From Desulfatitalea sp. BRH_c12 (GTDB lineage Bacteria > Desulfobacterota > Desulfobacteria > Desulfobacterales > Desulfosarcinaceae), in the NCBI GenBank assembly GCA_000961655.1, contig LADR01000008.1, forward strand, positions 186,001 through 250,000: a DNA stretch of 64,000 bases, read 5' to 3'. The notes below the pieces were generated by a model, which saw only the letters and a program-made list of their open reading frames with translations, was not told the origin of the DNA and did no database searches. Positions 25,255 to 33,834 of the stretch are shown in pieces (the stretch's first letter is position 1; every line of letters starts with the position of its first letter). The position numbers and the translations under genes are program-made.

Positions 25255-25479
25255 ATGACCGACATGCCCAAAAGAGACACCGAAGGAAACATGCCCAAAA
25301 GAGACACCGAAGGAAAATGTGAGGGTGAATGCCGTGACCGGGAAAAAGAGGGCTATGCAGAGCGACAGTCCAAAATAGAAAGTGAACACAAGGATGTGGA
25401 ATCTCCGGAAGAGTATCCCAATGCGCCAAAAGCCAAAAAACGCAATGAACCGCCCGGCAGCATGGGTGGTCACGTCTGA
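25255..25479 (+). CDS. Small charged protein with tandem 9-residue repeat
   Basis: A 74-residue hydrophilic protein dominated by Lys, Arg, Glu and Asp. It has no signal peptide and no predicted membrane helix. A perfect 26-base direct repeat (25264-25289 and 25291-25316) encodes two copies of MPKRDTEG. Two Cys occur in KCEGECRD. A strong AGGAGGT eight bases before ATG 25255 argues that it is really translated. I do not recognise it. It looks intrinsically disordered and could be a stress or assembly factor; this is a guess. A hairpin follows at 25497-25534. Confidence 0.6.
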   Translation: MTDMPKRDTEGNMPKRDTEGKCEGECRDREKEGYAERQSKIESEHKDVESPEEYPNAPKAKKRNEPPGSMGGHV

Positions 25480-29612: not shown

Positions 29613-29754
29613 GTGTGGCGAACTTAAAAGGCAGACCGAATAAGGTGGCAGGATCATTTTTTTGGGTCTTTACACCCATGTCAAAATGAACGCTGATGAT
29701 GTTGGATGGATCCTAATGACGGCCGGAGCATCTGGCCTCCAAAAAGGAGAAACA

Positions 29755-30042
29755 ATGGATACCATCAATTTGGCATTGGACCAACATCCGATTCGATTCA
29801 CACCTGATGGGAAAGTAGCTGTCATGGATGCCATACGCGCGTTGAGCGACCTGACCGACTCCGGACGGATATGGCACTCCCTGTCGCAAACCCATCCGGA
29901 AATCATTTCCCTTTGCGATACCTATCATTTCATACATACCGAACCCACGCCTGTCGCCGACAGCGAGGTTTGGGACACGATTCAGGGTCTTCTCTTTGAT
30001 TATCTGGTGGAGGAAAGCTTGTCAGACGCAGAGCAGGTCTGA
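29755..30042 (+). CDS. Small protein of unknown function (95 residues)
   Basis: Starts MDTINLALDQHPIRFTPDGK and continues with AVMDAIRALSDLTDSGRIWHSL. The pattern of a beta hairpin followed by helices vaguely recalls Bro-N/KilA-type phage antirepressor domains (IRFTPDGKVAVMDAI ... W..L), but the match is too weak to name. It is acidic at the C-terminus. AAGGAGA five bases before ATG 29755 fixes the start and rejects the longer frame from 29662. Its stop at 30042 abuts the stop of the pseudo-receiver gene on the other strand. Confidence 0.7.
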   Translation: MDTINLALDQHPIRFTPDGKVAVMDAIRALSDLTDSGRIWHSLSQTHPEIISLCDTYHFIHTEPTPVADSEVWDTIQGLLFDYLVEESLSDAEQV

Positions 30043-30468: not shown

Positions 30469-30707
30469 CTGCCTTGCTCCTGCAGGTACCTTAAACATCC
30501 CATCACCCAAATAAATAAAGCGAATATTTTAATTGCCCAAAGGCAACACGCTATCTGCATGCGTTTTCGGAGGTAGTACGGACCTACCCGCCCGGCTCAC
30601 CTGGAGGCGGTTTTTCCCTGGCACCAAGCCCCTGCTTGACAAAGCCCGCGATCATAAAAAGCTTATTGGCCTTACGGAGATAATTCGATCCACAAAGGAG
30701 TTTTGCC

Positions 30708-30875
30708 ATGAGTGACGAAGTTGAACGATCGGATGCTTGCAATCTCGATGCTTGCACGATGGACGACTCGGAAAAGCAGGGCAGCGCTAACCTATGCTGT
30801 TGTTATGCAATAGATGAAAACGACACCTACGAGGATCCCTGCTATACACCGGTGGATGAAAATTGCTGCTGTTAA
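30708..30875 (+). CDS. Cys-rich 55-residue peptide upstream of superoxide dismutase
   Basis: Reading from ATG 30708 gives MSDEVERSDACNLDACTMDD, a Ser/Lys/Gln stretch, LCCCYAIDENDTYEDPCY and a C-terminus ENCCC, 55 residues in all. Nine are Cys, in two single DAC sites, one PCY and two CCC triplets; the rest is strongly acidic. AAAGGAG seven bases before the ATG is an excellent ribosome-binding site, so I believe it is translated. There is no signal peptide. I do not recognise the family. A metal-binding (metallothionein-like or chaperone) or thiol role is suggested by composition alone. The superoxide dismutase gene starts 98 bases later on the same strand. Confidence 0.65.
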   Translation: MSDEVERSDACNLDACTMDDSEKQGSANLCCCYAIDENDTYEDPCYTPVDENCCC

Positions 30876-30973: not shown

Positions 30974-31579
30974 ATGACACACACCTTACCAAAAATCGAG
31001 TACGCATACGACGCATTGGAACCGTACATTGATGCGCGTACTATGGAAATTCACCATACCAAACACCACCAGACCTATGTGGATAAACTCAATGCCGCTT
31101 TGAAGGGCCATGAGCGGTTGCAAGATATGCCCGTTGAGCAAGTATTGCGGAACTTGAACGAGGTTCCTGAAGACATACGTACAGTTGTTCGCAATCACGG
31201 CGGCGGACATGCCAACCACAGTTTCTTCTGGCCTACCTTGAAAAAAGGGGTCGAGGTCGGTGGACCGGTGCATGATGCCATCAAAAAACATTTTGGCAGC
31301 TTCGATGCTTTCAAGGATCAGTTCTCCAATGCGGCCGCCCTGCTGTTCGGCAGCGGATGGGCTTGGTTGACCGTTGAACGCGGTAATCTGGAGATTGTCA
31401 CCACGCCCAATCAGGATAGTCCTGTGAGCCAGGGCAAGGTACCGATTCTGGGTATCGATGTTTGGGAACATGCCTATTATCTCAAATACCAAAGCCGCCG
31501 CCCCGAATATGTCAGCGCTTTTTTCAATGTGATCAACTGGGACAAAGTCAACGAACACTTCAAGGCAGCGATGCAGTAG
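30974..31579 (+). CDS. Superoxide dismutase, Mn/Fe family
   Basis: Converts superoxide to oxygen and hydrogen peroxide. The 201-residue product has metal ligands His27 ([10 protein letters not shown]), His in [11 protein letters not shown], and Asp and His in the signature [12 protein letters not shown]. Gly before the second ligand (GGGH) and Gln in TPNQDSP resemble the manganese-using type rather than the iron type, but metal use cannot be settled from sequence. No signal peptide, so cytosolic. TGGAGG precedes ATG 30974. In a presumed anaerobe it protects iron-sulfur enzymes such as the neighbouring aconitase. Confidence 0.96.
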
Positions 31580-31896: not shown

Positions 31897-33834
31897 ATGG
31901 GAAAAAATGTCGCCCAAAAATTGATCGCAGCGCATCTGGTCAGTGGCACCATGCGGTCCGGAGAGGAGATCGGGCTTAGAATCGATCAGACCTTGACCCA
32001 GGATGCGACCGGCACACTGGTCATGCTGGCTTTCGAAGCCATGCAGGTGCCGCGGGTGAGGACAGAATTGTCCGCGCAGTATGTCGATCATAATCTGCTG
32101 CAGCTCGATTACAAAAATGCCGACGACCATCTTTTTCTGCTGAGCGCGTGTAAAAAATTCGGCGTCTGGTATAGCCGTCCCGGCAATGGGGTCAGCCATC
32201 CCGTGCACATGGAGCGCTTCGGCGTGCCCGGCAAAACGCTGGTCGGTTCTGACAGCCACACGCCCTCCGCAGGCTCGCTCGGCATGCTGGCCATGGGCGC
32301 CGGCGGCCTTGAGGTGGCGCTGGCCATGGCCGGTGAACCGATGTTTCTGAGGATGCCCAGCATCATGGGGGTGCGACTTACCGGCCATCTGCCCGATTGG
32401 GTCAGCGCCAAGGATATCATCCTTGAAATGCTGCGCCGTCACGGGGTCAAGGGCGGGATGGGAAAAATTGTCGAATATCACGGACCGGGGCTGGCAAGTC
32501 TTTCGGCCATGGACCGGCACGTGATTGCCAATATGGGCACCGAATTGGGTGCGACAACGACGGTTTTTCCCTCGGACGAGGCCGTACGCGTCTTTTTGAA
32601 GGCTCAGGGGCGCGAGGCTGTCTGGAGCGAATGGCTGCCGGACGAAGATGCCGTGTACGACGAAACAGACGCCATCGACCTTTCCAAACTCGAACCCCTG
32701 ATCGCTCTGCCGAGCAGTCCCGGCAATGTCGTGCCGGTGCGCGAGGTAGCCGGCCGCGAAATCTATCAGTCCTACATCGGATCGTCGGCCAATCCCGGAT
32801 TGCGCGATTTCAGCGTACCGGCCATGATGGTCGATGGCCGGCAGGTGCATGACCGGGTCTCGTTGGACATCAATCCCACTTCGCGCCAGATTCTCGAAAA
32901 CCTGGTGGCCGATCATAGCCTGGAAAAGCTGATCCGTTCGGGCGCGCGTATTCATCAGGCCGGCTGCAACGGTTGTATCGGTATGGGGCAGGCGCCGGCT
33001 ACCGGCAAGATCAGTTTGCGCACGGTGCCGCGCAATTTTCCCGGCCGTTCGGGAACCAAAGAGGATCAGGTCTACCTGTGCAGTCCGGAAACCGCCGCCG
33101 CTTCCGCCTTGACTGGCGTCATCACCGATCCGCGCACGTTGGACATGGCCTTTCCGAAGTATCGTGAACCGGAGCGGGTACGGATCAATGTCGACATGTT
33201 AATTGCGCCAAACCAGGACAGTGCGGGCATTGAGTTGGAAAAAGGCCCCAACATTCAACCGTTGCCTGTGTTCGATGCCTTGCCCGACCGTGTGGCAGGT
33301 CCTGTGCTGCTGAAAGTCGGCGACAATATCTCTACGGATGAGATCATGCCGGCCGGCGCGCATGTGTTGCCGTATCGCAGCAACATTCCTGAAATCAGCA
33401 AATTCGTATACAGCCGCATGGACGAAACCTTTTATGATCGGGCCGTGCAGCACCAGCGACACGATTTCATACTGATCGCCGGGCAGAATTATGGCCAGGG
33501 ATCGAGTCGCGAGCACGCCGCCATAGCGCCCCGCTACCTGGGTTTGAAAATTGTCCTGGCCAAGAGTTTCGCGCGCATCCATTGGCAAAATCTGGCTAAT
33601 TTCGGTATACTGCCGGTGACGTTTGACGATCCGGGCGACTACGATCGTATCAGCCAGGGCGACGCGCTCGAAACGGTCGATCTACGTCACAGTATAGCCA
33701 AGGGCAACCGCATCACCTTGCAGAATACAACACGCAGCGAAACCTATACGACGAGCCACGCGCTGAGCCCGCGTCAGATCGAAATGATTCTGGAAGGCAG
33801 CTTGATCAATGTGGTGCGCAAGCGAACGCGTTGA
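31897..33834 (+). CDS. Aconitate hydratase (Aquifex-type)
   Basis: Interconverts citrate and isocitrate using a [4Fe-4S] cluster. The 645-residue length and sequence fit the short bacterial aconitase subgroup first noted in Aquifex rather than the 860-900-residue AcnA/AcnB. Active-site segments visible are VGSDSHTPSAGSLGM, cluster Cys in QAGCNGCIGMGQAP, the swivel domain start DNISTDEIMPAG, and the catalytic QNYGQGSSREHAAIAPRYLG. ATG 31897 follows GGAGGAGC. It supports the TCA cycle or glutamate synthesis. It sits 318 bases after superoxide dismutase and 55 before a hydrolase. Confidence 0.94.
   Translation: MGKNVAQKLIAAHLVSGTMRSGEEIGLRIDQTLTQDATGTLVMLAFEAMQVPRVRTELSAQYVDHNLLQLDYKNADDHLFLLSACKKFGVWYSRPGNGVSHPVHMERFGVPGKTLVGSDSHTPSAGSLGMLAMGAGGLEVALAMAGEPMFLRMPSIMGVRLTGHLPDWVSAKDIILEMLRRHGVKGGMGKIVEYHGPGLASLSAMDRHVIANMGTELGATTTVFPSDEAVRVFLKAQGREAVWSEWLPDEDAVYDETDAIDLSKLEPLIALPSSPGNVVPVREVAGREIYQSYIGSSANPGLRDFSVPAMMVDGRQVHDRVSLDINPTSRQILENLVADHSLEKLIRSGARIHQAGCNGCIGMGQAPATGKISLRTVPRNFPGRSGTKEDQVYLCSPETAAASALTGVITDPRTLDMAFPKYREPERVRINVDMLIAPNQDSAGIELEKGPNIQPLPVFDALPDRVAGPVLLKVGDNISTDEIMPAGAHVLPYRSNIPEISKFVYSRMDETFYDRAVQHQRHDFILIAGQNYGQGSSREHAAIAPRYLGLKIVLAKSFARIHWQNLANFGILPVTFDDPGDYDRISQGDALETVDLRHSIAKGNRITLQNTTRSETYTTSHALSPRQIEMILEGSLINVVRKRTR

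Follow-up and report, generated by a model that had tools for sequence, protein, structure and literature searches.

PEP, a conserved cysteine-dense microprotein of Desulfobacterales encoded beside superoxide dismutase and aconitase genes

In Desulfatitalea sp. BRH_c12, a short open reading frame (ORF) for an acidic peptide rich in cysteine lies just upstream of a superoxide dismutase gene. This raises the questions of whether the frame is a genuine gene and, if so, whether its product serves the superoxide dismutase or has some other function. The frame, here termed PEP, was examined within a window of 64,000 nucleotides (contig LADR01000008.1, positions 186,001 to 250,000), whose own numbering is used below, and in the genomes of relatives.

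A conserved frame with nine cysteines

PEP occupies positions 30708–30875 of the forward strand and encodes 55 amino acid residues (MSDEVERSDACNLDACTMDDSEKQGSANLCCCYAIDENDTYEDPCYTPVDENCCC). Nine of these are cysteines, at positions 11, 16, 30, 31, 32, 45, 53, 54, and 55, and the peptide carries 15 acidic residues (D+E) compared to two basic residues (K+R). The Shine-Dalgarno sequence AAGGAG (30695–30700, forward strand) ends 7 bases 5′ of the ATG, and most PEP homologs are preceded by similar sites. The ORF readout confirms the 55-residue frame, nine cysteines, two CCC triplets, and good Shine-Dalgarno site reported in a first-pass annotation of this DNA. That annotation also held the frame to be too short for routine annotation; a length of 55 residues is not under the customary limit of gene finders. 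Among the 288 ORFs of 40–80 residues in the window, PEP alone has at least nine cysteines, and it alone has two CCC triplets. Shuffling the bases of the window 30 times produced 13,666 ORFs of this size, of which one reached nine cysteines and none had two CCC triplets.

Searches of Pfam-A, NCBIfam, and the PDB returned no convincing relative of PEP. Metallothionein matches numbered zero among 16 PEP members with Pfam-A and zero families with NCBIfam, and an Rfam scan found one tRNA in the window and nothing at the PEP locus. The AlphaFold model has no confident fold (pLDDT 53), a value that may mean a poor model rather than disorder; the free peptide is probably disordered. Its N-terminus does not look signal-like by eye, and the peptide is thus expected to be cytosolic.

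Homologs were collected in successive searches. A single-sequence search of 30 genomes of the family gave 10 matches, from which G023 and G024 were removed for internal stops; seven other genomes held matches (E 5.8e-12 to 0.01) that were later verified. An eight-sequence profile (A1) matched 47 of 291 genomes at E ≤ 1 and reached other families of the order, with 13 genomes at E ≤ 1e-8; the 34 matches above that value were left out of the count. A 16-row profile (A2) matched 25 of 389 genomes of the order at E ≤ 0.05. Eight of these were weak (E 0.0016 to 0.05) and were set aside: three (G070, G071, G122) proved by eye to be the relative PEP2 described below, and five (G157, G249, G231, G715, G011) were taken as chance or undecided. 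The strong matches thus number 17 of 389 Desulfobacterales genomes (E ≤ 1.4e-13) in seven families; 16 of them are rows of the profile itself, and G688 is an independent new match.

Within its own genus, PEP is found in 9 of 11 genomes and is missing from G002 and G004, which are 73% and 86% complete. None of 19 genomes from other genera of the same family reaches E ≤ 1.4e-13 with profile A2, and the remaining members are spread over six other families (G212, G184, G162, G139, G099, G230, G688, G039). A phylum-wide draw found PEP in 2 of 395 genomes, namely the BRH_c12 genome itself (G000) and G039, which belongs to the same order. A tblastn search of plasmids with PEP gave no match, and 12 pattern matches in viral contigs yielded no confirmed member. 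The family was also not found in a literature search of open-licence PMC papers. Judged from these sequence comparisons, PEP is a family conserved in Desulfobacterales and without an entry in the family libraries searched.

The consensus of an 11-row subset is M.D.......AC.....D..G.TNLCCCY..D..G.Y.DPC..PV..CCC, in which Met1, Cys16, Cys30–32, Tyr33, Pro48, and Cys53 are invariant. In the full 16-row set, which includes more divergent members of the genus, invariance is confined to Met1, Cys16, and Cys31. The conserved thiol clusters are a single cysteine, the CCC, the DPC, and a terminal CC or CCC, and the terminal run ranges from CC to CCCCCCC across homologs. Individual members depart from this pattern: the tail is altered in G003, the DPC is gone and the CCC partly gone in G001, and the CCC is partly gone in G006. 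Pairwise dN/dS (Nei-Gojobori) within the close trio G005, G007, and G009 is 0.09, 0.11, and 0.12. For distant pairs dS is mostly saturated and the computable dN/dS values are 0.20–0.50, while the pooled substitution proportions are pS 0.79 and pN 0.41.

Conservation of the frame and of its cysteine positions in related genomes is the point on which the first-pass annotation had staked its proposal, and it is borne out by the 17 of 389 genomes and the trio dN/dS of about 0.1. A chance ORF or annotation artefact, for which the short length speaks, is refuted because the frame is conserved and dN/dS is near 0.1; the shuffle statistics also count against it, and its probability is negligible. PEP is therefore a genuine gene which, by these substitution rates, is under purifying selection in the close trio.

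Gene neighbors and the sod leader element

The gene downstream of PEP, sod (30974–31579, forward strand), begins 98 bases 3′ of it and encodes an Fe/Mn superoxide dismutase of 201 residues, in agreement with the first-pass call of a metal-dependent enzyme. In NCBIfam it scores highest against the MnSOD model, at a value under the cut-off of that model. It is followed by an aconitase gene (31897–33834, forward strand; NF005558/TIGR01342). On the other side, between mscS and PEP, lies a conserved 126-residue ORF, F7 (29662–30042, forward strand), which also occurs in the G003 locus and has no Pfam match.

Neighborhoods of about 5 kb on either side were compared in all 17 loci where contigs permit, with shorter stretches for G006, G162, G184, and G688. 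An aconitase gene is present in nine loci, a second microprotein gene (ORF2, see the next section) in eight, sod in four (one truncated), and none of these in four (G184, G099, G230, G039). In the genus, the order is PEP-sod-acn in G000, PEP-sod-trpS-acn in G003, PEP-sod in G001, and PEP followed by a truncated sod in G006. In the last of these (L055, from about 907 onward), the sod frame directly 3′ of PEP breaks off after about 17 codons. Four other genomes of the genus (G005, G007, G008, G009) have the order trpS-acn-usp-PEP-ORF2, with trpS only partly matched in G009 and ORF3 as the next gene in G008, and G010 has acn-PEP-ORF2. Elsewhere in the order, PEP-trpS-acn-usp is found in G139, from another family, and PEP-ORF2-trpS-acn in G688, from a third, where the contig ends within acn. 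The orders PEP-ORF2-corrinoid adenosyltransferase and PEP-ORF2-ORF3 occur in G212 and G162, respectively. In G230, the sole PEP locus of its family, a SelO gene (L042:5221-6840, forward strand) lies 39 bases 3′ of PEP. Shared descent accounts for part of this pattern, and the side of trpS-acn on which PEP and ORF2 sit varies among genomes.

The expectation that the cysteine-rich frame would stand next to sod in relatives thus holds for four genomes of the genus, one of them with the truncated sod, and fails as a general rule, with sod present in only 4 of 17 loci. Aconitase is the more common neighbor of the two (9 of 17 compared to 4 of 17). Aconitase is a classic target of superoxide. In the window enzyme and its orthologs, IGSSANPG replaces IGSCTNS, so that the first of the three cluster-ligand cysteines is serine, while GCNGC is kept. 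A comparison of 27 aconitases found 18 with SSAN, one with SSTN, and eight with SCTN; the SSAN sequences group in a tight clade with identities of at least 67%. Strict co-occurrence of PEP with the Ser-type enzyme was considered and rejected because each is found without the other: G039 has PEP and no match to this aconitase at E ≤ 1e-50, and eight genomes with a Ser-type aconitase have no PEP match.

TrpS was considered as a second Fe-S client. The Fe-S motif of Thermotoga TrpS is C-x22-C-x6-C-x2-C, and this motif, with some slack allowed, is absent from all five TrpS sequences examined; the candidate was rejected. It is probable that trpS merely accompanies aconitase, since the two genes are adjacent in G057 and G082 at loci without PEP.

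The sod genes of the genus share a promoter-like leader element. Upstream DNA of five PEP loci aligned poorly, and the element, TTGACA-N12-ATAAAAA, was then found by pattern search, with a single match in the window at 30636–30660 (forward strand), ahead of PEP. The pattern was drawn up after inspecting G000, G003, and G006, and for this reason its chance estimate of 0.04 is not independent. A scan for sigma-70 promoters and terminators gave nothing above chance and did not report the element at 30636. In the genus, TTGACA with an A-rich stretch precedes each of the seven sod orthologs compared; three of them match the strict pattern, and in the other four the element was recognized by eye. 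It lies 338–488 bases 5′ of sod in G000, G001, and G003, with PEP in between, and 120–220 bases 5′ of sod in G005, G008, G009, and G010, with no PEP between. These last four genomes have sod and PEP on separate contigs, and no PEP-like peptide was found within 700 bases 5′ of their sod genes. The element also stands ahead of PEP in G006, and a similar one does so in G139. A wider form of the pattern matched 19 of 235 loci, which represent six distinct places: the PEP leaders of G000, G003, G006, and G139, the sod leader of G010, and a site in G068 that is ahead of neither gene. Among seven sod orthologs from other genera, none has the whole element and one has TTGACA alone.

Since the sod leader element sits 5′ of the PEP-sod pair, PEP seems to have entered the sod transcription unit within the genus. 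We infer that PEP is co-transcribed with sod or aconitase. The proposal that PEP is dedicated to a metal role for the superoxide dismutase is not supported by the comparison, as sod adjoins PEP in only 4 of 17 loci and four sister genomes hold sod on other contigs. Because the sister genomes keep sod apart from PEP, supplying it with metal is, on gene order, unlikely to be the general job of the peptide.

Companion microproteins

Two further microprotein families without a place in the libraries searched, ORF2 and ORF3, appear as partners of PEP. ORF2 encodes 57–60 residues with five nearly invariant cysteines and is found in 40 of 242 genomes of the order at E ≤ 0.01; a draw from the phylum gave 3 of 198 genomes, including one that does not belong to the order. 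Its AlphaFold model is a helical hairpin (pLDDT 85). Foldseek gave no match to this model at E ≤ 0.001 (best 1.6), and VIA-align gave a best Z of 7.6, which by the tool's own note is possibly just a common arrangement; ORF2 was accordingly assigned to no family. The single ORF2 copy of the BRH_c12 genome lies on a different contig from PEP. ORF2 also occurs without PEP in the locus, beside trpS-acn in G225, acn in G037, and sod in G130. Its loci include L040, L044, L052-L054, L056, L057, L160, and many others. In G099 (L077), a different acidic cysteine-rich ORF of 43 residues, ending in CCSCCW and having a Shine-Dalgarno sequence, lies about 270 bases 5′ of ORF2.

ORF3 encodes 63 residues and reaches E ≤ 0.01 in 28 of 116 relatives. 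Its members share the ending RNEPPG..GGHV and match nothing in Pfam. One copy (CEGEC...RNEPPGSMGGHV) lies in the window at 25255–25479 (forward strand), 5.2 kb 5′ of PEP, and a second is on another contig of the same genome. The window copy has a duplicated start, MPKRDTEG.

PEP2 combines a charged start with VDPCGC-type repeats, the number of which differs between genomes, and usually a terminal CCC. It matched 18 of 194 genomes at E ≤ 0.01, of which three (G020, G137, G165) looked like chance and one (G099) is PEP proper; visual inspection left 15 convincing loci in 14 genomes, one of which runs into a contig end. PEP2 loci include L163/L185 (G070), L184 (G071), L024 (G122), L186-L193, and L201. 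A Pfam scan of three members gave no entry. PEP2 resembles PEP in its charged start, Y-V-D-P-C, and terminal CCC, and the two profiles cross-match weakly; unlike PEP, it has repeated VDPCGC units and is found mostly in other families. It adjoins ORF3 in G081 and G036 and is convergent with ORF2 in G070.

Such combinations suggest that the microproteins form a loosely linked functional set, in which most copies of PEP or PEP2, ORF2, and ORF3 each occur singly. A stronger version, which we consider very doubtful, is that they travel together as a dedicated oxygen-damage kit. ORF2 would load or recycle PEP, and PEP would serve metalloenzymes, chiefly the Ser-substituted aconitase, as a mobile thiolate ligand, returning iron or sulfur after superoxide has broken the cluster.

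Possible functions and known systems

Bacterial metallothioneins have a cysteine density like that of PEP, with its 9 in 55 residues. The composition of PEP, the precedents for its CCC motif, and the sod and aconitase context together favor a thiolate metal or redox buffer. The preferred reading, held at a probability of roughly 45%, is that PEP is a small cytosolic metallothionein-like buffer made alongside sod or aconitase during oxygen stress. Its thiolates would wrap a soft or labile metal (Cu(I), Zn(II), or the Fe(II) that damaged Fe-S clusters release) and would be reversibly oxidizable. PEP might thereby limit metal and thiol damage while the dismutase clears superoxide and aconitase is rebuilt. 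Metal or thiol binding is plausible from composition and precedent. Every cysteine of a fungal metallothionein, including those of a CCC, binds Cu(I) (PMC13107397). Over-expression of the metallothionein PmtA protects from oxidants (PMC11237414). The buffer reading is also supported by cysteine positions conserved over seven families, purifying selection in the close trio, a model without a confident fold (pLDDT 53), the element-PEP-sod order in G000, G001, and G003, the element-PEP order in G006 and G139, and a relative, PEP2, built of repeated CGC. Counting against it, CxC and CxxC spacing is mostly missing, no metallothionein model matches, four of 17 loci have none of sod, aconitase, and ORF2, G001 and G006 lack parts of the CCC or DPC, and deletion of PmtA has no oxidant phenotype (PMC11237414).

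The hosts of PEP lead a sulfide-rich life style, and the cysteine runs could instead pass reversibly through thiol, disulfide, and persulfide states, in which case ORF2 would be the partner and metal would play no part. The vicinal cysteines, the presence of sod and SelO as neighbors, and the position of ORF2 immediately 3′ of PEP in 8 of 17 loci all suit such a redox buffer; however, PEP has no thioredoxin-like CxxC and no reductase was recognized among the part of its neighbors that was scanned, and we consider this reading unlikely. It is likewise unlikely that PEP is a client-specific regulator, a disordered chain that docks on aconitase, or on the dismutase in some genomes, with the CCC transiently ligating the active-site metal or cluster and so shielding or inhibiting it. 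A precedent exists in the disordered Inhibitor-3, whose CCC motif engages the active-site metal of PP1 (PMC10066265). Aconitase occurs in 9 of 17 loci, and the neighboring aconitases lack one cluster-ligand cysteine. Against a fixed client stand the varied neighbors of PEP, its presence in G039 apart from that aconitase (E ≤ 1e-50), and the eight Ser-type genomes without a PEP match. A role of this kind at aconitase is nonetheless a rival worth testing.

Two other explanations place the function outside the mature peptide or in a modified product. Polycysteine small ORFs that act as attenuators in mycobacteria were reportedly first described by Canestrari et al. in 2020. On this reading, ribosomes would slow at the terminal cysteine codons when Cys-tRNA is scarce and thereby alter translation of the next gene, leaving the peptide itself inert; the mycobacterial attenuators are described in PMC9031893. 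PEP homologs do end in CCC to CCCCCCC, and in the window the CCC is followed by the stop with sod 98 bases on. In both G000 and G006, the sod ribosome site is base-paired in the minimum-energy fold. As a sign of RNA structure coupling the two genes, fold strength gave a mixed picture: G006 exceeds its shuffles (z −4.51 and −3.6), G000 does not (z 0.24 and 0.7), and G001 and G003 give z −1.6 to −1.9, with −1.56 among the values for G001 and −1.78 among those for G003. Downstream genes differ between families, and the G006 sod is truncated. The attenuator reading fails, and is highly improbable, because residues are conserved along the entire peptide, with a trio dN/dS of about 0.1. The acidic start and cysteine-rich end could likewise be the leader and core of a RiPP precursor, for which the odds are very poor: conservation includes the middle of PEP rather than leaving a free core, and no RiPP enzyme was recognized among those neighboring ORFs, a subset of the roughly 5-kb surroundings, that were scanned.

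How strict anaerobes control their Fe-S enzymes and metals when exposed to oxygen can be addressed with the PEP set, whose named genes are open to expression or deletion. PEP itself adds a conserved, cysteine-dense microprotein family of sulfate reducers, new to the family libraries searched and encoded beside sod and aconitase.

SmtA is a cytosolic protein of about 55 residues with about nine cysteines. PEP resembles it and the other bacterial metallothioneins (BmtA, PmtA; Pfam Metallothio_Pro) in size, cysteine number, and predicted location, and it has the high cysteine content of this group (9 of 55). PEP differs in matching no metallothionein model, in its acidity, in its sod and aconitase context, and in having CCC runs rather than mainly CxC or CxxC spacing. 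Its cysteines are arranged as CCC, a single cysteine, and DPC, with CGC in the G005, G007, and G009 trio only. PmtA is, in addition, tied to oxidative stress (PMC11237414). The mycobacterial polycysteine leaders share with PEP a short ORF and contiguous cysteine codons ahead of an operon (PMC9031893); they are leaderless and cis-acting, unlike PEP with its Shine-Dalgarno sequence, conserved protein, and varied downstream genes. The Fungal-IV metallothionein of Yarrowia lipolytica has a central CCC, a long start free of or poor in cysteine, and cysteines that all bind Cu(I) (PMC13107397); it is eukaryotic, and the likeness to PEP carries no claim of homology. PP1 Inhibitor-3 likewise engages the active-site metal of an enzyme through a CCC in a disordered chain (PMC10066265). 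PEP has the CCC, and its pLDDT of 53 suggests disorder but could also reflect a poor model. Inhibitor-3 is eukaryotic and has basic patches and RVxF and SILK motifs, and again no homology is claimed. PEP represents a bacterial occurrence of the CCC motif that a fungal metallothionein and PP1 Inhibitor-3 are known to carry.
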